From assembly GCA_949282215.1 (NCBI GenBank), contig CASDPF010000013.1, forward strand, positions 1 to 64,000: 64,000 nt of DNA, in the 5' to 3' direction. Each line of letters begins with the position of its first letter. Within the stretch, counting starts at the first letter, position 1. The translations under genes were made by a program, and so were the position numbers. Below are positions 2,771 to 58,480 of this stretch, one piece after another. Source of the stretch: an uncultured bacterium. GTDB taxonomy: Bacteria; Cyanobacteriota; Vampirovibrionia; Gastranaerophilales; Gastranaerophilaceae. The notes under the pieces are model-generated. The model saw only the letters and a list, made by a program, of their open reading frames with translations. It had not been told where the DNA came from and made no database searches.

Positions 2771-2859
2771 TTGTTAAATTTAGTAAATTTTTTATATACA
2801 TGCACTTGTTATATTTTTCTTTCTGAGTGAAAATACATGTCGGGAAGGACAAGTTTAAA

Positions 2860-5208
2860 ATGCTCGTAGGAAAAACTCAATTCAACATACGACCTAGGCA
2901 AAAAGACTGGGGCATGTTATCCCCTAATCAGGAGCCTTTATCCTCTCCGAAATACATGTCACAATTTAATAAACACGATATTAAGAGACCTTTAAATCAT
3001 AATTCAGAGAATTTATCATTTAAAGGTCTTTCTGTATCTTCAGCATTAAACAGTGTATTTTATAAGAAAGCTCAAAAATCTTATAAACTTTCTAATTTAA
3101 ATAACATTACTGATGAACATCTTGGAAAAATGGTAAATAACTTAGTTCAGCATTTGAAAAAATCTGAACATGCCAAAAAATTTATTAAATTTGACGGTGA
3201 CGATGTTACCTTTAGTTTAAAGACCATCCCTCATCATATTTGGGATGGTTTAATTTATCCGTTCAAGATATTGCCTTTTGATATAATGAACGGAACAATA
3301 GAAATGCTTGGAAAGATTAAACCTTTAGAAAATTGGTCTAAGAATATTCTTTCTAAAAAATTCTTTAAAAATATCAGACAGCGTTCAAAAATAGATTCAG
3401 AAGTTAGTGCTCTAAGAGGTCTTTTGGATACTGCGAGTTCTTTAGACGGCAAATCAAAAGAAGAAATTTCATCTAAATTATTTCAAAAGTCTGTAAAAAT
3501 GTTTGATCCAAAGACCGGAAACTATGATACTAAGCATGAAAGAGCATTATGCAGAATAGTTTCAGGATTGCCTCCTGCAGTATTACTCGCAACTGATGCT
3601 TATAACTTATCAAGAATGATGGACGATGATCCTGCTGCTGCTAAAAAAGAAAAGAAAGCAAGATTCCGTCAGGAAATGAGTCGTTTAGTTATGAACGCAT
3701 ATCTTATGCTTGTAACTTTTGGTGCATTGAATAAGTATATTAACCAATCAGCATTCGGTACAATGCTTATGACTGGTGCTACAACTCTTATTACAGAGAC
3801 ATATTCTCGTTTAAGAAACGGTAAACATATTACAAGATTGACTCCTGAAGAAGCAAGAGCTGAAAATGAAAAAAATAAAGCTCCTGAAAGATTAATAAAA
3901 CCTACAACATCTTTCGGTTCTGCTCAAAAACCTGCTCAACCTAAGGAAGCTCAAAAACCGCTACTTTCATTTGATACAATTATGAAGGCTTGTGCTGCTG
4001 TGATTGCTGCAGGTTTTGCCTTCAAAGGTGCAAGAAAACTTATTCCGTCATTGGATAAAACACTTAATGTAATCACAGAACCTTTCAAGGCTCAATATTA
4101 TAAAATGACAACATTACCTGATTTTAAAATCAAAGGTGAAACATTTGATAAAATAGTTAAAGTTCTTGAAGATAACGGTTATAAAGAATTAGCTAATAAA
4201 TATAAAGATGTAGCTGCAATGACGAGAAATTCTGATGGAACTATCAGTTTGGGTTTAAGAGATAAAAAATGGAAGCCTGCAGTGGATTTCGTTATTGCTC
4301 CTTTTAAATTTATATGCAATGCAATCACTTTGCCATATCGATTAGTCGATAACGCTATTAAGGGTGCTATTAATAAAAAAGATCCATTAAAAGGTGTTAA
4401 AGATCTTGAGAAGTTTTCTAAGAATATTGAAACTTTAAGAGCTGATGCTATCAAAAAAGGTTATGCAAAAGATGATTTCTTAAAGTATGTACAAAATAAT
4501 TCAAGTAAAATTAATGATATAAAAGCTTTGTCTATGAGTATTGAAAAAATCGGGCACGAAGCTACTAAAAAAGGCTATACTCCTGAGAAATTTCAAAAGT
4601 TCGTAGAAGATAATATTATGAAATCATTTAATACAGATACGCTTTCTTCTGTATCAAATGCTGACCTTGCAAACCTTGCAAAAACAGCTTCGACAGCAGC
4701 TACAATATGGTTCTTGATGACAGATAACTATAATATGGTTATGTTGAAATCAAACGGTAATGATAAAGAAGGTGCTGAAACTAAATTTAAAGAAAGATTT
4801 GTACAGGAATGTTCAAGACAATTCTACTCAATGCTATTGATTGATTTATTCAATAATACATTCAGTAAACAATATCACGCGTCATTATTGGGTATGAGCT
4901 GGATTACTTTAACTGATACGACTATAAGTGAAATCTTGACTAGAAAATCTGTAGGTATGACAGTTAAAGAACACACCAGAGATGAACTTCTTGCAATAGA
5001 GGATAGACAAAATAAAGCAACCGGTGCATTGAAAAAATATTATAACTTTATGCAAAGATTAACCGGCAAACGCTCAATTAAGTCTTATGAAATTAAAGCT
5101 AAGAATAACCAACAATCTCAAAATGATAAAGATGTTTTAGTCGCTGTACCGCAGGCTCAACCGTCAATGCAGGGTAACAGCGTTTTAAATAAAATGATAA
5201 AAGGTTAA
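2860..5208 (+). CDS. Large membrane-associated protein with an internal duplication, function unknown
   Basis: About 782 residues. The ATG at 2860 is chosen because GGGAAGGA lies just upstream; a GTG at 2827 gives 11 more residues without a ribosome site. Near residue 52 is NLSFKGLS, an F-x-[GS] signature also seen in three other proteins here. Two halves resemble each other. Residues about 229-335 carry ATDAYNLSRMM, then RFRQEMSRLVMNAY and ITETYSRL; residues about 600-705 carry MTDNYNMVML, then RFVQECSRQFYSML and ISEILTRK. Each half has hydrophobic helices and is preceded by a W/P/F-rich stretch (IPHHIWDGLIYPF; KPAVDFVIAPF). The protein probably arose by tandem duplication of a roughly 370-residue unit. 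No enzyme motif is recognised. Confidence 0.8.
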   Translation: MLVGKTQFNIRPRQKDWGMLSPNQEPLSSPKYMSQFNKHDIKRPLNHNSENLSFKGLSVSSALNSVFYKKAQKSYKLSNLNNITDEHLGKMVNNLVQHLKKSEHAKKFIKFDGDDVTFSLKTIPHHIWDGLIYPFKILPFDIMNGTIEMLGKIKPLENWSKNILSKKFFKNIRQRSKIDSEVSALRGLLDTASSLDGKSKEEISSKLFQKSVKMFDPKTGNYDTKHERALCRIVSGLPPAVLLATDAYNLSRMMDDDPAAAKKEKKARFRQEMSRLVMNAYLMLVTFGALNKYINQSAFGTMLMTGATTLITETYSRLRNGKHITRLTPEEARAENEKNKAPERLIKPTTSFGSAQKPAQPKEAQKPLLSFDTIMKACAAVIAAGFAFKGARKLIPSLDKTLNVITEPFKAQYYKMTTLPDFKIKGETFDKIVKVLEDNGYKELANKYKDVAAMTRNSDGTISLGLRDKKWKPAVDFVIAPFKFICNAITLPYRLVDNAIKGAINKKDPLKGVKDLEKFSKNIETLRADAIKKGYAKDDFLKYVQNNSSKINDIKALSMSIEKIGHEATKKGYTPEKFQKFVEDNIMKSFNTDTLSSVSNADLANLAKTASTAATIWFLMTDNYNMVMLKSNGNDKEGAETKFKERFVQECSRQFYSMLLIDLFNNTFSKQYHASLLGMSWITLTDTTISEILTRKSVGMTVKEHTRDELLAIEDRQNKATGALKKYYNFMQRLTGKRSIKSYEIKAKNNQQSQNDKDVLVAVPQAQPSMQGNSVLNKMIKG

Positions 5209-6021: not shown

Positions 6022-6690
6022 ATGAATAAAAGACTTATTATAATAGGGTTATTAATTGTTGCTATTTCCATAATCGGAAAATTAGTTTTTTCTGCAGCTA
6101 AGCATATTAAAGTTGATGATTTTAAACCTGCTGCGGTGATTTTTGTAGTTGATTCTTCTGCTTCTAACCAGAAAGGGCTTGCTGCTCAGAAAAAAACAGT
6201 CAGACAGATTTGTAATATTTTAGATCCTGAAGATACTGTAAAAATTTTAAGAGTTTCCGAAGATGCATATTTGATTTATGAAGGGGCACCATTTAACGGT
6301 TCCGGTATTGATAAGGCTATGGAAGCTTTTACAAAGTATGATGAAAAAGATTACGGTACCGCTTATGGTATCGGATTGAAGAAAGCTTTTTCTCATGCTT
6401 TAACTATGAAGAAAAACGGTTATCTTCCTGCTGTAGTTGTTTTAGGTGACTTAGAAAATGAAGGTGCTGTTGATAAACAGATTAACTGGGATACTTTACC
6501 TAAAAATGTTCAAAATGTTAAAAAGTATGCTCCGGATTTAGCTATGATGTTTTTATATGCACATCCTGAAAAATTGGATATGGTAAAAGAAAAATTGGGT
6601 CCTGTTTTGGGAGAGAAAAAATTGTTGATATCGCCTGAACAAAATGTTGATAAGACTGTTAAAAGTTTCATTCACGCACTTGATAGATAG
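6022..6690 (+). CDS. Membrane-anchored VWA domain protein
   Basis: 222 residues. A single N-terminal transmembrane helix (about residues 4-24) anchors a von Willebrand factor A-like domain. The metal-ion-dependent adhesion site is recognisable: VVDSSAS gives D-x-S-x-S at 44-48, with candidate later ligands in GTAYG and VLGDLENEG. VWA domains mediate metal-dependent protein binding. The gene is 5-17 bases from the FHA-like gene and heads a five-gene same-strand cluster to 9862. Complexes combining VWA and FHA modules are known in bacteria, but I do not recognise this arrangement. Confidence 0.8.
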   Translation: MNKRLIIIGLLIVAISIIGKLVFSAAKHIKVDDFKPAAVIFVVDSSASNQKGLAAQKKTVRQICNILDPEDTVKILRVSEDAYLIYEGAPFNGSGIDKAMEAFTKYDEKDYGTAYGIGLKKAFSHALTMKKNGYLPAVVVLGDLENEGAVDKQINWDTLPKNVQNVKKYAPDLAMMFLYAHPEKLDMVKEKLGPVLGEKKLLISPEQNVDKTVKSFIHALDR

Positions 6691-6707
6691 AAAGGTTGTA
6701 TAAAGTT

Positions 6708-8309
6708 ATGTCTATAATAATAATGTCTTCATCTCAAGAAAAATCTTTTGAAGATAAAGATTTAATTAATATTGGATCAAATTCAAATTGTGATTTTATC
6801 ATTAATGTAGGTTATGACGTAATTTTAACTGTTCAAATTGATAAAATTACGGGCAAGTGTTTTGTTGTGAATAATTTTCATAATGAAAAGATTTTATTTA
6901 AAGGCAGACCATTACAAAAAATTGAAGTCGTTAATGTATGTAAAATAGTTTTTGCTGATACAACTGAGTATGTTGGTGTAAAATATGTTCCTGAAACTAA
7001 GTCTATGGCTATGATTGAACAGGAAGATTTGAATGAAGAAGATTTGAAACATATTTATGGAAATGATTCTGCCACTATTACAAGAGTTAAAATTGAAAAG
7101 CAGCGTGAACCAATTGAAAAAGCCCGTGTTGCGATAATTAAACAGGTAGCATATTCTATAAATGAATTCAGGCAAAAACTTTCTGCAAATTCTAAGACAA
7201 GCATATTTTTGCATATTGCACTTTTAGGTGCGGCTATTATTAATTCGTTTGCGGTATCTAATTATTTGATGGGGCTTACAGTAAAAGAATCAGAAAAATA
7301 TTTGTATTTGCCGACAAATATAAAAGTTTGGGTTATATATGCACTTATCACTTTTGCAATTTGTTTGATGCTAAAACAGGGTGTTTGTTTATTCTTGCAG
7401 AATAATGTTGTAAAAGATAACATTAAAACTTCACGAATTGCTCAGAATTTTATGCTTTGGCTTTCAACTATATTTTTGCTTGGAATTTATTCGGTTAATC
7501 TTGTTTATTTTATGAATGTAAATAATTTTATGTCTTTTGCGGTATTTATTTCATTATTTTTTACCGGCATAATGGCTACAATTGCAATTGCGTGCGGATA
7601 TTTTAAATGTAACAGCTCTGAATGGCAGGCTACTTTGAACAAATATGAATTCAGAGAAGATTTTGAATCTGTTTTAAAAGCCTATAGAGTATGGATAGAC
7701 AGATATGTCAACAGTTTAAGTAAAACTAAAATTCAAAATATTAAAGACCGATTATTCAGTTTACAATTGAAATCTACAGGTGAAGTGGTTTTAGGTATTT
7801 TAACAGCACCTTTCTTGGCTTATGGTGTATCAAATACTTTGGCAATGTGTTTTCCTGAAGCTGCAGGATGGGTAAGAATTTCAGGACTCCGTTTCAGTCC
7901 GATATTCTTGGTCTTAGCAACATTTTTGATTATTTTTGCATTTTTCTCATTTGTAGCTGCTTTTACGGCTTCAAAAAAAATCCAAGGATCAGAAGTTATT
8001 AAACAGGATGGATTTATTGACTACAGGCAGCATGGAGTCAATATTTTCGGGCTTGAGGGTGTAAAAAAATTAAGAGCGGATAACAGAAGATATTTGGCTA
8101 TTGCATTAAGTATTATATTTATTGAATTCACAATGAACGTATCATACTTCATGACGGAGATTGGCGGTGATTTCAAAGGTTTGGCTTTGAGTTTCATTGC
8201 TGCACTTGTTCCAACAGCTTTGCTTCTTGCTGAAACGGTCTTGTTAAGTCAGACAAATTTTGACATTTATGCTTGTGATGAATTAATTTCTAAAATTGAT
8301 AAAGATTAA
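6708..8309 (+). CDS. FHA-like domain fused to a polytopic membrane region
   Basis: 533 residues from the ATG at 6708; a TTG at 6696 lies directly against AAAGG and is a poorer start. Residues about 10-95 look like a forkhead-associated domain: INIGSNSNCDFIIN, then a later NNFHNEKILFKGRPL. FHA domains bind phosphothreonine peptides, but the canonical Gly-Arg pair is replaced here (IGSNSNCD), so phosphopeptide binding is uncertain. A cytoplasmic linker rich in Glu and Lys follows, then about seven to eight hydrophobic helices in pairs. The next gene starts 2 bases after the stop, indicating one operon. Confidence 0.7.
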   Translation: MSIIIMSSSQEKSFEDKDLINIGSNSNCDFIINVGYDVILTVQIDKITGKCFVVNNFHNEKILFKGRPLQKIEVVNVCKIVFADTTEYVGVKYVPETKSMAMIEQEDLNEEDLKHIYGNDSATITRVKIEKQREPIEKARVAIIKQVAYSINEFRQKLSANSKTSIFLHIALLGAAIINSFAVSNYLMGLTVKESEKYLYLPTNIKVWVIYALITFAICLMLKQGVCLFLQNNVVKDNIKTSRIAQNFMLWLSTIFLLGIYSVNLVYFMNVNNFMSFAVFISLFFTGIMATIAIACGYFKCNSSEWQATLNKYEFREDFESVLKAYRVWIDRYVNSLSKTKIQNIKDRLFSLQLKSTGEVVLGILTAPFLAYGVSNTLAMCFPEAAGWVRISGLRFSPIFLVLATFLIIFAFFSFVAAFTASKKIQGSEVIKQDGFIDYRQHGVNIFGLEGVKKLRADNRRYLAIALSIIFIEFTMNVSYFMTEIGGDFKGLALSFIAALVPTALLLAETVLLSQTNFDIYACDELISKIDKD

Positions 8310-8311
8310 TT

Positions 8312-9058
8312 ATGAAATTTCTAAAAATATTTATAATATTAATGATAGTAATTTTGACAGTAATAGCAGGAGTGTCGCAACAAAAATTGCATAAGCCTCT
8401 TGTGATTACCGGTGCAGATTTTCAGCTCCAAAGGTTTACGGAGCAAATATCAGAAAAAATTGTCAAAACTTCATCTCCAAATGAGCAACAGGTCAGTCGT
8501 AATGTCGAAATTGATCCGTCTTCTTTTGTTTCAGATGATAGGTTTTTATCTATGAATGAGCAGAAGAATGTTGAAACAGTTGTAAAAGATGCGTCTGCAG
8601 ATGAACCGGATTTGAATGAACTTGAACAATTAGCGAATGATATACGTAAAGAAAGTGTTCAAGAACCTTCGAAAGATGATGATAATACTAAATTAACGAA
8701 AAAAGAAGAGTTAATCGCGTGGAATAAATGGCGAAGTGATGTGCAAAATGAAATTATGATGAAAACTCAAGTTGAAGCTCCGATAGGTACGGTTTTTTAT
8801 TTTTCATTTGTCGTGGATAAATTTCGTCATATATCAAATATAAAAGGAATTTGTTCAAATCCTTTTGCTCAAAAAGAAGTTCAGACGAAACTGATTCCTG
8901 TAATTAAGTCTTTAGAATATACGTCTTTACTAGAATTTCCAAAAGGGACTAATAGAGATAAAACAACTGTAAGAGGTATGTTTTCTTTGGGATTTGAAAC
9001 TATGCTTTCGCAACCGAGCGATTACAATGACATAGAAAGGGTACATGTGTATGAATAA
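8312..9058 (+). CDS. Single-pass membrane protein with TonB-C-like end
   Basis: 248 residues. An N-terminal hydrophobic helix (about residues 4-21) is followed by a Glu/Asp/Lys-rich, probably extended, periplasmic segment to about residue 140. A compact C-terminal domain starts WNKWRSDVQNEIMM. The layout (TM anchor, extended charged linker, small C-terminal domain with IGTVFYFSFVVDKFRHISNI) resembles TonB-type energy-transducing proteins and the TonB-C domain of the 9242-9862 neighbour, but similarity is weak. It follows the FHA-like gene by 2 bases and overlaps the next mini-gene. Function unknown. Confidence 0.7.
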   Translation: MKFLKIFIILMIVILTVIAGVSQQKLHKPLVITGADFQLQRFTEQISEKIVKTSSPNEQQVSRNVEIDPSSFVSDDRFLSMNEQKNVETVVKDASADEPDLNELEQLANDIRKESVQEPSKDDDNTKLTKKEELIAWNKWRSDVQNEIMMKTQVEAPIGTVFYFSFVVDKFRHISNIKGICSNPFAQKEVQTKLIPVIKSLEYTSLLEFPKGTNRDKTTVRGMFSLGFETMLSQPSDYNDIERVHVYE

Positions 9059-9188
9059 AAATGGGATTGCGGTTTTCGCTTCATTTGTCATATTGTCAGT
9101 CTGCTTATTAACTGCAGTTATGATAATTAGTCAACCTTCAATTAATAAGACTGTGGTATTGCAAATTCAAAATCTTGTCAAAAAATAA
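9051..9188 (+). CDS. 45-residue single-pass membrane microprotein
   Basis: Start ATG 9051 overlaps the end of the previous gene by 8 bases and has GAAAGGG upstream. The peptide is MNKNGIAVFASF at the start, a single hydrophobic helix through about residue 27, then SQPSINKTVVLQIQNLVKK. Length, overlap and the clear membrane helix argue that it is a real member of the 6022-9862 cluster, perhaps a small subunit that packs against the polytopic FHA-like protein. No homologue is recognised. Confidence 0.6.
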   Translation: MNKNGIAVFASFVILSVCLLTAVMIISQPSINKTVVLQIQNLVKK

Positions 9189-9241
9189 ATTCATTTAATA
9201 GAATGATTGCAAGCTGTATTATTACATTATAGTATATTCCT

Positions 9242-9862
9242 ATGTTCAAGTGTACAATATGCCAAAAGTTGCATGATACAAGAGTTGAATATTGTGATTG
9301 CGGAAATGATGTTTTCGAAGAAGTTCCTGACATTTCTGAAAAGCAGTCTTGGAAATTATCATTTACTCCTCAACAGTTATTGTCTTGTATAATATTTTTA
9401 ATCTGTATAATATTCTCCTGTTGGGTTATGTTTGGAATAAACTTTAAAGCTTCTAAACAACCGCATAAAAATTTAACAAAACAATCTGCCAAACAAATAA
9501 ATGATATTCCACAAATAGATGAAATATGGGATGATACTCCTCCGGGCGGGGTTTTAATAGGTAATAGCACATCTTTGGATTTGTATAAATCCCGATTAGA
9601 AAAGGCACTTTATTCAAACCTTGAAGTGAATGAGATTTTTGAAGACGGGCGTTGCGTGATTGAGTTTAAAATCAATGAAAAAGGTAAACTTACAAATCGA
9701 CGTTTATATAAAGAAAAAGGCAGTATGATTTTTAATAATAATATTATAAAAATGATGAAACGTACGTCAAATGTGATAAATCCGCCATCTGGTTATGAAA
9801 ATACAAAGTTTACGGCAGATGTCTATACTTCAAATGGGGTTATAAAAATTGATTTAAGATAA
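9242..9862 (+). CDS. Zinc-ribbon membrane protein with TonB-C-like domain
   Basis: 206 residues. The N terminus has CTICQKLH then YCDCGND (four Cys in two pairs), a probable rubredoxin-type zinc ribbon. A transmembrane helix (about residues 48-68) follows, then a Pro/Asp linker, then a C-terminal domain of about 90 residues with IEFKINEKGKLTNRRLYKEKGS, the signature strand-turn-helix of TonB-C domains. Cytoplasmic zinc ribbon, membrane helix and periplasmic TonB-C-like domain are thus joined in one chain. It closes the cluster; a strong terminator follows at once. Confidence 0.75.
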   Translation: MFKCTICQKLHDTRVEYCDCGNDVFEEVPDISEKQSWKLSFTPQQLLSCIIFLICIIFSCWVMFGINFKASKQPHKNLTKQSAKQINDIPQIDEIWDDTPPGGVLIGNSTSLDLYKSRLEKALYSNLEVNEIFEDGRCVIEFKINEKGKLTNRRLYKEKGSMIFNNNIIKMMKRTSNVINPPSGYENTKFTADVYTSNGVIKIDLR

Positions 9863-23131: not shown

Positions 23132-23238
23132 ACGTATAATTCTATCTTATTGACAGATACAATCAAAGAGAGTATAGTAAATAATATATTTACTATAATA
23201 AATATTTAATATATTATTATAATTATTTGGAGAGATAT

Positions 23239-23949
23239 ATGAATAAGTTTTTTAAAGCTTTTACATTAGCAGAAGTCTTAATTACATTAAGTATAATCGG
23301 CATTGTTGCTGCAATGACATTGCCTACGTTGGTTCAGAAAAATCAAGAAAAAGAAACTATTGTAAAGTTAAAAAAAGCGTATTCAATATTATCTCAAGCA
23401 TATTATTCGGCTATTTCTGAATACGGGGATAGCTCTGAATGGGATTTGGGAGAAGTATATTCACCTGAGGGTGCTGCATCTATTGCCGAGAAATTAGTTA
23501 AATATTTTAAGTTTCATAAAATATGCGGTACGGAACCCGGCTGTTTTCCTAAGGTTACATATAGAGGGTTTAATAATTCAAGTTGGTATTATATTTATAA
23601 TACTAATAGAGTGTATAAATTAATCTTGGTTGACGGTACTTTAATAGGTTTTGAAAGTCATGGAAATGAATACTGTAAAACCTCTTATTGTGCAAAAGTA
23701 TTTGTTGATGTGAACGGTTATAAAGGTCCAAATCAGTTAGGGTATGATACGTTTTCATTTTATTTGCAAAAGGGGAGGATAATGCCTTATGGGTATCAAG
23801 GTGATACTGTTGATCCTTTTGATACAAGTAAAATCAAAACAGATATTGGAGAATTTCTGACAGCTTGGGTTTTGGTTAATGAAAATATGGATTACAAAAG
23901 ATGTCCTGAAAAACTGGGCTGGGATAAGGCTAGCAGTTGTAAAGACTAA
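23239..23949 (+). CDS. Type IV pilin-like/pseudopilin protein (no leader cassette)
   Basis: 236 residues from the ATG preceded by GGAG (TTG 23227 rejected). The prepilin signal is short (MNKFFKA), cut before FTLAEVLITL, with Glu at +5 of the mature protein. The hydrophobic helix is followed by a globular domain with four Cys and the DVNG..GPNQLGYDTF stretch, a D-x-N-G...P-N..G.D loop that may bind calcium as in other pseudopilins. Unlike the other four pilins in the window it lacks the poly-G leader; its upstream region is AT-only with repeated TAATATAT elements. The C-terminal WEIxDDYPW motif is also absent. It tail-overlaps the Nif3-like gene by 4 bases. Confidence 0.9.
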   Translation: MNKFFKAFTLAEVLITLSIIGIVAAMTLPTLVQKNQEKETIVKLKKAYSILSQAYYSAISEYGDSSEWDLGEVYSPEGAASIAEKLVKYFKFHKICGTEPGCFPKVTYRGFNNSSWYYIYNTNRVYKLILVDGTLIGFESHGNEYCKTSYCAKVFVDVNGYKGPNQLGYDTFSFYLQKGRIMPYGYQGDTVDPFDTSKIKTDIGEFLTAWVLVNENMDYKRCPEKLGWDKASSCKD

Positions 23950-27543: not shown

Positions 27544-27778
27544 TTGAAATTATTCAAAAAATGAGTTATAATTATTTAAAAAGGAGGACGTATGCAAAAA
27601 GCTTATATAGATAGAATTTCGGGGGGGGGGGCTACCAACTAGCAGTTAAATCAAGCATTTCCGACTTAGACCTCCTATTGAACAAAAAAGAGCAGAAAAG
27701 CAAGCCGTGCCAAAAGACACGGTAATTTGTGATGCAAAATTTTTGAAAAAACAGGTAATGAAAACAAATGGAGGACTT
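27544..27778 (+). promoter_or_regulatory. Pilin cassette 1 control region: promoter, poly-G leader, anti-SD and hairpin
   Basis: Promoter TTGAAA, 17 bases, TATAAT (27544-27572). A strong AAGGAGG then a mini-ORF at 27592 with G11 at 27621-27631. ACCTCCT (27670-27676) can pair with the pilin GGAGG (27770-27774). A hairpin GCCGTG/CACGGT with loop CCAAAAGA lies at 27704-27723. The same order occurs in cassettes 2 and 3; cassette 4 lacks the hairpin. Confidence 0.75.
27592..27642 (+). CDS. Poly-G leader mini-ORF, cassette 1
   Basis: With the 11 G present, 16 residues: MQKAYIDRISGGGATN. AAGGAGG lies eight bases before ATG. With 12 G the frame would run to TAA 27723-27725, giving a peptide continuing GGGGYQLAVKSSISDLDLLL, and would cross the anti-SD block; with 10 G it stops after about 19 residues. 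Its role is inferred to be regulation of the pilin gene behind it. A secreted peptide cannot be excluded. Confidence 0.6.
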   Translation: MQKAYIDRISGGGATN

Positions 27779-28516
27779 ATGAAAAAGAGAAACGCTTTCA
27801 CATTAGCAGAGGTACTGATAACATTAGGAATAATCGGAATAGTTGCAGCAATGACAATGCCTATTTTGATAGAAAAACATCAGAAGAAAGTTTCGGCTGC
27901 GCGTCTAAAACAAGCCTATAGTATGCTTTCACAGGCAATATTGCTTGCACAAAAAGATTATGGAGAGCCAAAATACTGGGATAGTGGTACAGGGCAACTT
28001 AATACGGGTACAAATAACAAGCAAATGGCTACAACAAATTTTGTAGAAAAATATGTAATTCCATATTTAAAAGGTGTTCGATCCCATGGTTGGACATCTT
28101 TGGCTGATGTTGGTTATAAAAAGGCTTATGTTGCTTTAAATGGTAAAACTATTCCTAATGGAAATTTTACAAACTTATCTAACACTGGTTATATACTGGA
28201 ATTGAATAATTCTACTTTTATAATATTTTCCTATAATGATTATTACATAGATGGTACAAGTGGCCCGACAGAACTTAAACAGGCTGTTGTATATTTTGAT
28301 ATAAATGGCAGACAAAAGCCAAATATGTTTGGGCGTGATTTCTTTGTTTTTCAGTATAACACGTCTAAGGGAATATTAGAACCTTATGGACAAGGCTTAT
28401 CCCGTACGAACTTATTAAAATCTTACTGTACAAAATCAACTGAATGGGGCAATATAGCTTGTAGTGCTCTAATTATGCTGGATGGATGGGAGATCAAGGA
28501 CGATTATCCTTGGTAA
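27779..28516 (+). CDS. Type IV pilin-like protein, cassette 1
   Basis: 245 residues from the ATG 27779 (TGGAGGAC upstream); the in-frame GTG at 27707 lies in the leader hairpin and is rejected. Prepilin signal MKKRNA is followed by FTLAEVLITL, with Glu at +5. The globular domain carries FDINGRQKPNMFGRDFF, a D-x-N-G...P-N..G.D loop shared with two other pilins. Two Cys near the C terminus precede GWEIKDDYPW, a terminal motif shared with cassette 2 and, in altered form, 3. The protein is probably cleaved by a prepilin peptidase and assembled on a type IV pilus or type II secretion machine, genes for which are outside the window. Confidence 0.92.
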   Translation: MKKRNAFTLAEVLITLGIIGIVAAMTMPILIEKHQKKVSAARLKQAYSMLSQAILLAQKDYGEPKYWDSGTGQLNTGTNNKQMATTNFVEKYVIPYLKGVRSHGWTSLADVGYKKAYVALNGKTIPNGNFTNLSNTGYILELNNSTFIIFSYNDYYIDGTSGPTELKQAVVYFDINGRQKPNMFGRDFFVFQYNTSKGILEPYGQGLSRTNLLKSYCTKSTEWGNIACSALIMLDGWEIKDDYPW

Positions 28517-47844: not shown

Positions 47845-48519
47845 ATGAAAAAGAGAAATGCTTTTACCTTAGCTGAAGTCTTGATAACGTTAGGAATAAT
47901 AGGTATAGTAGCAGCAATGACAATGCCTACATTGATTACAGATGCTAGAAAGAAATCAACAGCTACAAAAGTAAAAAAATTCTATAATATAATGAATAAT
48001 GCAGTACAATTTTCTATCGCAAAAAACGGTGATGTGAAAAATTGGATGGGCGAAGCTCAAGATTATACCTATGAAGAAAATGTTCAATTCGTCAAAGATT
48101 ATTTTTTGCCCTATATAAAATATCGTAAATATGAAAAATGCAGTGATACAAATAAAGCTGTATGTGTATACCTAATTCCTGATGGTATGTTTGTGTTTAA
48201 ATATGATCTTAATGGGGGCGATATTGCTTATTTTATAGATGGAAAGTATCTTTTAGATGAAGAAAGAACCACTCATAACTATTTTGGATTTCAATTTAAT
48301 AAAAGAAATGGTGATAATGAAGATGGAACTCCTATAGAAAGAGATTTTAATCGCAAAACATCAGTTGAACCTTATACTTTTAATTGGGATGGAACTTATG
48401 AAAACTTGAAAACACATCCAAGATATGGTTGTAATAAATATAGTACGCAAGCAAAATCATTTTGTACGAAATTACTTCAGATGAATAATTGGGAAATTAC
48501 AGACGATTATCCTTGGTAG
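47845..48519 (+). CDS. Type IV pilin-like protein, cassette 2
   Basis: 224 residues, MKKRNA then FTLAEVLITL with Glu at +5. SD ACGGAGG six bases from the ATG. The globular domain lacks the D-x-N-G...P-N..G.D loop of pilin 1 but ends NNWEITDDYPW, the terminal motif also in pilin 1. Cys pairs precede it (GCNKYSTQAKSFCTKLLQ). It follows cysE but has its own promoter. Confidence 0.92.
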   Translation: MKKRNAFTLAEVLITLGIIGIVAAMTMPTLITDARKKSTATKVKKFYNIMNNAVQFSIAKNGDVKNWMGEAQDYTYEENVQFVKDYFLPYIKYRKYEKCSDTNKAVCVYLIPDGMFVFKYDLNGGDIAYFIDGKYLLDEERTTHNYFGFQFNKRNGDNEDGTPIERDFNRKTSVEPYTFNWDGTYENLKTHPRYGCNKYSTQAKSFCTKLLQMNNWEITDDYPW

Positions 48520-54486: not shown

Positions 54487-55200
54487 ATGAAAAAGAGAAA
54501 TGCTTTTACCTTAGCAGAAGTGCTTATTACATTAGGAATAATAGGTATAGTTGCTGCAATGACATTGCCTGCATTGGTTCAAAAATACCGCAATCAGGTT
54601 GTAGAGACAAGATTGAAAAAGTTTTATTCTGCAATGAATCAAGCCGTAAAAATGGCTGAAGTTGATTATGGAGATAAGAAGATTTGGTATAAGGATGTTG
54701 GCGGACTGGCTGTAGATAGTGAGGGAAATCCAATAGAAGGCTCTTCAAATATAGATATATGGTTTCAAAAATACCTTGCACCATATTTAAAAATAGTTAA
54801 AACAAGTATAAACAGTGAAGGCCTACCTTTGTACTATTTTGCTGATGGTAGTGCTTTATCTCCAGCAGATGCATCTGAAAGTCGTGATTGGGCTTTTTAT
54901 ACCGGAAATCCTGATAAATGTAATAAAAAATACCAAAATTCCTATGGTATTTGTAAATTTACTTTTGAATTTTATCCGGCAGATTCAACAGATGTTCGCT
55001 GGAAGTTTTTATATAATAAGGGTTTTGAACCTGTGAAATATAGTTGGGATGGTAGTGAAGATAGCTTATATAATCATTCTTTATATGGGTGTGCTTTTGA
55101 AACAACTTCTCAAAGAGATGCTAGAGCTTATTGTGGAACATTAATTCAATACAATAATTGGAAAATACCAGAAGATTATCCTTTAAAGGTTGATTATTAA
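54487..55200 (+). CDS. Type IV pilin-like protein, cassette 3
   Basis: 237 residues, MKKRNA then FTLAEVLITL with Glu at +5. SD CGGAGGTC is complementary to the leader anti-SD block. The Cys pair near the C terminus (GCAFETTSQRDARAYCGTL) matches the pilin 2 pattern, and the end is NNWKIPEDYPLKVDY, an extended, altered form of the WEIxDDYPW motif. Asp/Ser/Tyr-rich globular domain. It is inserted between sepF and nadK. Confidence 0.92.
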   Translation: MKKRNAFTLAEVLITLGIIGIVAAMTLPALVQKYRNQVVETRLKKFYSAMNQAVKMAEVDYGDKKIWYKDVGGLAVDSEGNPIEGSSNIDIWFQKYLAPYLKIVKTSINSEGLPLYYFADGSALSPADASESRDWAFYTGNPDKCNKKYQNSYGICKFTFEFYPADSTDVRWKFLYNKGFEPVKYSWDGSEDSLYNHSLYGCAFETTSQRDARAYCGTLIQYNNWKIPEDYPLKVDY

Positions 55201-57748: not shown

Positions 57749-58480
57749 ATGAAAAAGAGAAATGCTTTTACCTTAGCAGAAGTGCTAATAACATTAGGAA
57801 TAATTGGAATAGTTGCCGCAATCACTCTTCCAGTAATTATTCAAAAAAATCTTGATAAACAATTAATTTCCCGTACAAAAAAAGTGTATTCTGATGTTAA
57901 TAATGCGCTTCTTGCAGCCCAAAATGATTATGGTGTGGTAGGCGATAATTCGTTTCTTTTTAATTCTCAAGATTCGGATATAGATGTTGTACAAAATTTC
58001 CAAAAGTATTTGATTGGTTCAAAAATATGCAGGAGTAAGTCGCAAACAGGTTGTGCGTCATATTATTATGATATAAAGTTTGCAACTCTTCGCCTGACTG
58101 GGGAAGGTGGGGGTGCAGATGTTTATAATCAAAATAAGCCGAAAATTATTCTATCTAACGGAGCTATTGTCGCTCTTCAAAATTCCAGAAAACCTGATTG
58201 TAAAGGTTCCTATACTGCAAATAAGACAGATGAATACGGCCGACCTACGGATGATGTGGTTACAGTAGAAACTTCTTATTGTGGTTATATTGTGTTTGAT
58301 GTAAACGGTGTGCAAAATCCTAATCAGTTCGGGCGTGATGCTTATTTATTTTATGTTTATAAAAATAAACTTGTCCCTCATTCAGCTATGTACGGAAGTG
58401 CAAGTTTTAATAATATAATAACCGGTAAAGATAAACTTGAATATAAAATTTACTCAAAAGGTCAAATATTTGAATTTTAA
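57749..58480 (+). CDS. Type IV pilin-like protein, cassette 4
   Basis: 243 residues, MKKRNA then FTLAEVLITL with Glu at +5. The globular domain has FDVNGVQNPNQFGRDAYLFY, the D-x-N-G...P-N..G.D loop shared with pilin 1 and the 23239 gene. Several Cys lie mid-protein (KICRSKSQTGCASY). The C terminus (YKIYSKGQIFEF) lacks the WEIxDDYPW motif. So the four cassettes carry different pilin bodies behind a shared control region. It converges with fba. Confidence 0.92.
   Translation: MKKRNAFTLAEVLITLGIIGIVAAITLPVIIQKNLDKQLISRTKKVYSDVNNALLAAQNDYGVVGDNSFLFNSQDSDIDVVQNFQKYLIGSKICRSKSQTGCASYYYDIKFATLRLTGEGGGADVYNQNKPKIILSNGAIVALQNSRKPDCKGSYTANKTDEYGRPTDDVVTVETSYCGYIVFDVNGVQNPNQFGRDAYLFYVYKNKLVPHSAMYGSASFNNIITGKDKLEYKIYSKGQIFEF

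Follow-up and report, generated by a model that had tools for sequence, protein, structure and literature searches.

A conserved five-gene cluster of Gastranaerophilaceae as a candidate trans-envelope module of TonB/Tol/Glt-like type

What is the work of a gene cluster that places a VWA protein and an FHA-like polytopic protein beside two TonB-type proteins and a 45-residue microprotein? The question is raised by positions 6022-9862 of contig CASDPF010000013.1 (assembly GCA_949282215.1) from an uncultured bacterium of the family Gastranaerophilaceae. The window analyzed here is the first 64,000 nucleotides of that contig, and the source genome comprises 2.19 Mb in 45 contigs, with a contamination estimate of 3.4%. 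Our favored answer, held with modest confidence, is that the five genes encode one envelope-spanning TonB/Tol/Glt-like complex with a non-standard inner-membrane core. The cluster is laid out as follows (TM, transmembrane; CTD, C-terminal domain).

6022-6690, + strand: VWA protein, 222 aa
6708-8309, + strand: FHA-like protein with eight TM helices (FHA-8TM), 533 aa
8312-9058, + strand: TonB-like protein, single-pass with a TonB-CTD fold, 248 aa
9051-9188, + strand: single-pass microprotein, 45 aa
9242-9862, + strand: zinc-ribbon/TonB protein, 206 aa
9860-9889, + strand: intrinsic terminator found by RNA folding, hairpin CGGGA-TATA-TCCCG between A and T runs

All five open reading frames (ORFs), including that of the microprotein, lie on one strand as described in an earlier first-pass annotation of this DNA, with intergenic gaps of 17, 2, −8 and 53 nt. 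The start of the microprotein gene overlaps the stop of the TonB-like gene by 8 nt (ATGAATAA), suggesting translational coupling of the two. For FHA-8TM, the conserved start is the ATG at 6708 rather than the TTG at 6696. In agreement with the single terminator proposed earlier, a perfect hairpin followed by a U-run (−15.1 kcal/mol, z = −4.6) was found directly 3′ of the last gene. A simple terminator scan did not pick up this hairpin, and a generic terminator/promoter scan was not used because its counts equaled those in shuffled sequences.

The first-pass annotation had treated the five genes as a unit, and their synteny supports this. When the VWA protein served as the only query, a single scan of GTDB genomes yielded 54 loci, and by these relatives the window falls in Candidatus Gastranaerophilales; the loci analyzed here include metagenome-assembled genomes. 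FHA-8TM lies downstream of VWA in 53 of the 54, the TonB-like gene is present in 50 (three of the four misses, L017, L034 and L051, are contig ends), and the zinc-ribbon/TonB gene in 42. The sole real exception, L046, carries an opposite-strand leucyl-tRNA synthetase-like gene after VWA instead of FHA-8TM, and in L037 one reversed gene is inserted within the cluster. VWA and FHA-8TM are usually separated by 5-50 nt; the TonB-like gene typically follows after 2 nt, and the microprotein gene overlaps it by 1 to 14 nt. This gene order and tight spacing (mostly 2-50 nt) are repeated in dozens of Gastranaerophilales loci from many genera, and the co-occurrence of the five genes is not due to chance. 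As a side observation, L046:8001-11246 holds an intact VWA gene and a TrbI-like gene without FHA-8TM downstream, reflecting either a rearrangement or an assembly break.

Surveys at two taxonomic levels delimited the distribution of the system. Among 289 genomes of the class, VWA was detected in 130 and FHA-8TM in 138, and a comparison of the two lists placed all 130 VWA genomes among the 138. In the eight additional genomes the matches went no further than E 1e-23 to 1e-26; those listed were a solo FHA-like protein of ~100 aa. Among 292 genomes of the phylum, FHA-8TM was present in 102, every one of them in family f1, and none was found outside it. The gene set is therefore family-restricted and old within the family, yet absent from part of it. 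A literature search found no paper describing the cluster, although work outside the searched journals is possible.

The first gene encodes an anchored VWA protein with a complete metal site, consistent with the anchor and metal module proposed earlier. The protein shows a single hydropathy peak, an N-terminal signal anchor (residues 5-23) with positive residues on its N-side, and then the VWA domain, which is predicted to lie in the periplasm. The domain matches Pfam VWA_2 (4.7e-8; 34.1 bits against a cut-off of 27), and 24 of 24 orthologues match VWA profiles. In an alignment of 24 sequences with identity down to 48% and a mean column identity of 73%, the residues of the metal ion-dependent adhesion site (D44, S46, S48, T113 and D143) are invariant. 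The DxSxS pattern was recovered in 62/65 loci; one miss results from a wrong start, and the real losses are L110 and L111. The ratio of nonsynonymous to synonymous polymorphism (pN/pS) for VWA within the genus is 0.035-0.10, and VWA and FHA-8TM together are strongly conserved at 0.02-0.14; these ratios are only rough because synonymous sites are near saturation.

FHA-8TM comprises a degenerate FHA domain (about residues 1-95), a linker helix and eight TM helices. An AlphaFold2 model built from 36 orthologues had a mean confidence (pLDDT) of 82, and Foldseek placed FHA-1 of Rv1747 first for the N-terminal domain (E 0.002, probability 1.00, TMt 0.76), in line with the FHA-like polytopic protein of the first-pass annotation. 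The label "phosphopeptide-type" was not supported. The position of the phosphothreonine-binding Arg is occupied by S, T, N or G in 35/36 orthologues, with a gap in the remaining one and Arg in none; the SxxH motif is absent, and the corresponding region is hydrophobic (VILT). The domain is therefore probably a scaffold rather than a phosphothreonine reader, and phosphopeptide signaling through it was rejected. D29 and N55 are nevertheless among the invariant residues. None of the 36 members matches the Pfam FHA profile (PF00498) at E up to 0.1, and FHA-8TM matches no Pfam or NCBIfam family.

Eight hydropathy peaks and positive cytoplasmic loops indicate an N-in/C-in topology for FHA-8TM. The most conserved stretch extends from TM5 to TM8 and contains the invariant residues P368, P383, R395, P398 and E473; of the acidic residues in TM7/TM8, E473 is present in 36/36 and E509 in 35/36 orthologues. 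Foldseek matches of the membrane half to GltPh and ABC exporters were rejected as spurious, with rmsd values above 19 Å (above 23 Å for the GltPh-like ones). A 99-aa solo FHA-like protein that closely resembles the corresponding domain in FHA-8TM was also seen (L123:8539-8838, L124:8798-9097 and L125:8021-8320) in a genus most of whose members lack, as far as seen, the rest of the system; its gene lies between an efflux-pump region and unrelated genes and yielded no functional clue.

The third gene encodes a TonB-like protein consisting of a TM helix (residues 2-22), a disordered region (30-125) and a predicted TonB-CTD fold (130-225); a motif of P-x-[MIL]-H-K type marks the end of the anchor. 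The CTD was modeled as alpha-beta-beta-alpha-beta with a pLDDT of about 95. Its best PDB matches were the TonB CTDs of FusB, H. pylori (TMt 0.64, probability 0.99) and P. aeruginosa, plus TolA III, and nearly all of the best Foldseek matches were TonB/TolA CTDs, consistent with the TonB-C-like single-pass protein proposed at first. None of the 36 members matches any TonB sequence profile. The folds assigned to the second and third genes thus go undetected by Pfam and are model-derived, resting on AlphaFold2 and Foldseek; the models are monomers, from which interfaces cannot be read. Separately, L091:4051-5476 and L109:14186-16661 carry, behind an FHA-8TM copy, proteins in tandem that are secreted, having a signal peptide but no TM anchor, and that combine a CTD of the TonB-like type with a common repeated NNExTxPxTQIG-type motif.

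For the fifth gene, the earlier reading as a zinc-ribbon/TonB-C protein held. A predicted cytoplasmic zinc ribbon (C4-C7/C18-C20), whose four Cys do not vary among 26 sequences, is followed by a TM helix (46-64), a linker and a TonB_2 CTD. The Pfam TonB_2 match is above the cut-off (7.1e-5) and recurs in 25/26 orthologues, and the CTD is homologous to that of the same genome's own TonB (hhalign E 4.2e-7). The CTDs of the TonB-like and zinc-ribbon/TonB proteins were rejected as close paralogues and are taken as two separate TonB-CTD lineages, because hhalign gave only 15% probability for the pair.

The microprotein comprises one TM helix and a short predicted periplasmic tail (SINKT..., MHKT in relatives); its position is conserved across loci, and its pN/pS is 0.20-0.79. 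A hidden Markov model (HMM) made from only residues 1-44 of the TonB-like family was run over the 4,438 ORFs of the loci, and the cluster microproteins ranked top among short ORFs, with E-values between 3.6e-9 and 4e-3 at about 30 loci. In both proteins, the TM helix is followed by K/R-P-x-[MIL]-[HN]-K. As judged from these sequence similarities, the membrane anchor of the TonB-like protein exists in a second, stand-alone copy, the microprotein. Divergence keeps the INKT form of the window from scoring directly (E 0.82 for L002, a close orthologue), so the homology goes via orthologues in the same place. A small protein of similar kind lies instead upstream of the TrbI-like gene in L044, L045, L048, L055, L106 and L112. 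The common anchor suggests that one docking site could serve both proteins.

Beyond what the first-pass annotation described, the cluster belongs to a larger multi-copy system that includes a TrbI-like protein and a secreted VWA protein. The source genome contains three FHA-8TM copies: that of the window, C8:167549-169093, and C36:785-2482, the last on a 5.5 kb contig for which contamination is possible at the genome's estimated level. Genomes may carry two to three diverged copies of the system, and both the tree and gene content distinguish several old copy types.

Type a, window genus: VWA, FHA-8TM, TonB-like, microprotein, zinc-ribbon/TonB
Type b, other genera: the type a genes plus a TrbI-like secreted Gly-zipper protein upstream, with, in one genus group, an additional two-TM protein of 59-67 aa
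Type c, without membrane VWA (L090, L098-L104): TrbI-like, FHA-8TM, TonB-like, zinc-ribbon/TonB
Type d, both membrane and secreted VWA: e.g. L044, L048, L106, L111, L112

Every type c copy examined adjoins a secreted VWA protein with an intact DxSxS, and in L111 the metal site is lost in the membrane VWA and kept in the secreted one. Given the gene content of the four types, some VWA protein, membrane or secreted, accompanies every well-flanked copy examined. In L110:5571-15809, two complete clusters of different type lie ~1.3 kb apart on the same strand. Upstream of the window's cluster, plsY is found in divergent orientation.

The TrbI-like gene lies directly upstream in most genera other than that of the window. 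The TrbI Pfam model matched 7/16 of these upstream neighbors (best 1e-6), and the protein carries a signal peptide and Gly-zippers, with ComB10 and CagY as top PDB chains. Members of the same family head two canonical operons of the source genome, on C24 and C31, in the order TrbI-like - TonB - ExbB - ExbD - ExbD. The presence of one TrbI-like family beside FHA-8TM clusters as well as both canonical operons therefore links the FHA-8TM module with TonB-type systems, and is the strongest such link. Two further observations concern this family. One genome, which has no TonB-dependent receptor barrel, carries two paralogous operons (L092:6624-10996, − strand; L093:5545-9870, + strand) encoding two TrbI-like secreted proteins, TonB, ExbB, ExbD and ExbD, and the 2.2 Mb source genome encodes about ten TrbI/VirB10-like secreted proteins (C8, C31, C24, C5, C6, C2, C10, C1, C3).

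On the basis of the gene order, domains, single-protein folds, anchor homology, conservation and distribution observed above, we arrive at the following model, in which mutual binding of the proteins, cellular topology, energy source, outer-membrane partner and output are all inferred. FHA-8TM would be the inner-membrane platform, with its degenerate FHA domain as a cytoplasmic assembly or docking domain. The VWA protein, on its own anchor in the periplasm, would bind a periplasmic or platform partner through its metal site. The TonB-like and zinc-ribbon/TonB proteins would be single-pass rods whose disordered Pro/Lys/Glu/Gln/Thr-rich linkers cross the periplasm, offering TonB-type CTDs to an outer-membrane or cell-wall partner; the first candidate is the TrbI/VirB10-like Gly-zipper protein encoded beside most copies. 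By taking the docking site of the TonB-like anchor, the microprotein could set the number of rods on the platform, or it could cap the platform. Movement or a change of state of the rods might be driven by a TolQR/ExbBD-type motor from another locus, for which the two TonB-ExbB-ExbD-ExbD operons of the source genome are candidates, or by FHA-8TM itself. Adhesion or force, wall-outer-membrane tethering, or transport are possible outputs. Siderophore-type TonB import was rejected: the source genome gave 0 matches to the TonB-dependent receptor barrel (PF00593), which makes such import unlikely and points to Tol/Glt-like work.

The first-pass annotation had suggested an envelope complex with energy or force transfer across the periplasm. 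Neither of the findings that it named as refuting, genes that do not occur together in relatives or a missing FHA fold, was borne out. Given the co-conservation, the FHA and two TonB-CTD folds and the VWA metal site, an envelope complex with trans-periplasmic arms is the simplest reading, and in our best reading its inner-membrane part, FHA-8TM with VWA, is the new element. The energy or force transfer was not supported and is plausible by analogy only. Several findings weigh against the trans-envelope module as a whole. No ExbB/TolQ or ExbD/TolR gene lies in the cluster, and the source genome has both in unlinked operons only. A relationship of FHA-8TM to ExbB/TolQ/MotA was tried and rejected (hhalign E 0.27 over 10 columns against ExbB), and Foldseek found no credible fold match for the membrane half. 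The Foldseek E-values of the TonB-like CTD are modest (0.014-0.03), so that the case is carried by many concordant TonB matches, and coupling of this protein to ExbB is unsupported because its anchor has no recognizable TonB SHLS-type motif. Clusters of the window's own genus carry no TrbI-like gene, and copies L030, L032, L037, L038, L040, L049 and L050 lack the zinc-ribbon/TonB gene.

Other readings account for parts of these data. A passive envelope tether or stress sensor, in which FHA-8TM, VWA and the rods join the inner membrane, wall and outer membrane or report their spacing with no energy input, is in our judgment unlikely. It would agree with a cluster that contains no motor, in a genome without TonB receptors; with a role in the wall instead of in import, which TonB-like proteins of cyanobacteria can have (SjdR, PMC8262864); and with a housekeeping scaffold, as suggested by the low pN/pS of VWA and FHA-8TM alongside fast-evolving rods. 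However, a specialized function agrees better with a system that occurs in two to three diverged copies per genome and only in part of the family, and the invariant acidic residues within TM helices (E473, E509) suggest more than an anchor. Those same residues in TM7 and TM8, together with the eight TM helices and the strongly conserved TM5-TM6 segment, could instead mark FHA-8TM as a transporter or channel for a solute or lipid, with VWA and the TonB-like proteins as periplasmic accessories delivering cargo to the outer membrane. One copy adjoins an MlaD-type (MCE) lipid-transfer gene, and PlsY is often the divergent neighbor. We regard this reading as improbable: these neighbors are inconstant, no ATPase is present, and no transporter fold was matched.

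An adhesion and force machine, as a functional counterpart of the focal adhesion built by Agl-Glt/CglB in Myxococcus, would use one TolQ and two TolR proteins as a motor driving the TonB-CTD rods against an outer-membrane adhesin, the secreted VWA. The FHA, TonB-CTD single-pass and VWA parts would correspond to GltG, GltJ and CglB, secreted VWA proteins lie beside several copies, and the source genome encodes ExbB-ExbD-ExbD (one TolQ and two TolR types), as in AglRQS. Yet the VWA protein of the window is anchored in the inner membrane and is no outer-membrane lipoprotein, FHA and TonB CTD reside on separate proteins, FHA-8TM has no Glt counterpart, and the motor operons are unlinked to the cluster. 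We know of no report of gliding in this order, and consider this reading quite unlikely. Least probable by far is a part of a type IV or type VI-like secretion apparatus, which the TrbI/VirB10-like neighbor and its similarity to ComB10 and CagY would suggest. Type IV secretion is unlikely because VirB4 (PF03135) has no match in the source genome, and the TrbI-like proteins start with a signal peptide and lack the cytoplasmic part of VirB10. Membership in type VI secretion through TssR was likewise rejected: TssR_VWA matched only 2/24 VWA proteins (E 0.006), far more weakly than general VWA models. In none of the cluster copies seen was a sheath gene or a secretion ATPase noticed.

If the trans-envelope module is the correct reading, it bears on how such rods are driven. 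To our knowledge, the only motors that drive TonB-type rods are of the ExbBD/TolQR class; rods working with an eight-TM FHA protein and a metal-site VWA would imply a second drive mode or a non-energized use. A bolder version, rather unlikely in our estimation, would have FHA-8TM and the anchored VWA form a new inner-membrane engine or gate that replaces ExbB/ExbD, in which E473/E509 provide the ion path while the microprotein acts as a dedicated competitor tuning rod loading. For Gastranaerophilales, gut-dwelling non-photosynthetic relatives of cyanobacteria whose envelope is almost unstudied, the cluster would provide a concrete candidate trans-envelope machine, and the anchor common to rod and microprotein offers a simple, testable docking rule.

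Elsewhere in the window, five prepilin-type proteins are encoded (23227-23949, 27707-28516, 47845-48519, 54487-55200 and 57749-58480). Their N-termini are near-identical (AFTLAEVLITLxIIGIVAAxT) and their C-terminal parts very different, representing a lineage-specific pseudopilin expansion. No family matched the 793-aa protein encoded at 2827-5208, whose two halves look related and whose N-terminus bears an "SFKG" motif.

Compared with known systems, the cluster shares features with several and coincides with none. Like TonB-ExbB-ExbD and Tol-Pal, it encodes single-pass rods with disordered linkers and TonB/TolA-type CTDs; unlike them, it contains no ExbB/TolQ or ExbD/TolR, FHA-8TM is unrelated to ExbB, and the genome has no TonB-dependent receptor. 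The ring proteins PrgH/YscD/MxiG of type III secretion also place an N-terminal cytoplasmic FHA fold, with phosphothreonine-binding residues not conserved, on an inner-membrane protein. In PrgH, these residues are dispensable while the FHA domain is needed for assembly (PMC3635987), which provides a precedent for a degenerate FHA domain as an assembly module. Those proteins are, however, single-pass with large periplasmic ring domains, whereas FHA-8TM crosses the membrane eight times and has no type III secretion neighbors. Likeness to TrbI/VirB10/ComB10 lies in the secreted protein upstream in relatives, with its TrbI match and Gly-zippers; that protein has a signal peptide rather than a cytoplasmic/TM N-terminus, and is encoded outside the window's own cluster. 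SjdR of Anabaena is a TonB-like protein that shapes septal wall structure with no siderophore transport role (PMC8262864). By this description, it resembles our case as a TonB-like protein of a cyanobacterial lineage without such a role, although no FHA-8TM or VWA partner appears to be described for it.

The Agl-Glt/CglB system of Myxococcus xanthus is similar in that a single envelope system unites VWA, FHA and single-pass TonB-CTD proteins, and in the motor of one TolQ and two TolR type in the genome. GltJ reportedly carries a zinc ribbon as well. GltG of Myxococcus combines FHA with a TonB CTD (PMC3169522) and is, like GltJ, a single-pass TonBC protein (PMC5349195); the Glt complex holds CglB, a surface adhesin of VWA type (PMC13104615). 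In the cluster, by contrast, FHA resides on an eight-TM protein and the TonB CTDs on separate ones, where GltG carries both; VWA is anchored in the inner membrane, and the motor lies outside the cluster. Because FHA and TonB CTD are separated in this way, we do not claim membership; as a list of domains, the resemblance to Agl-Glt/CglB is striking.

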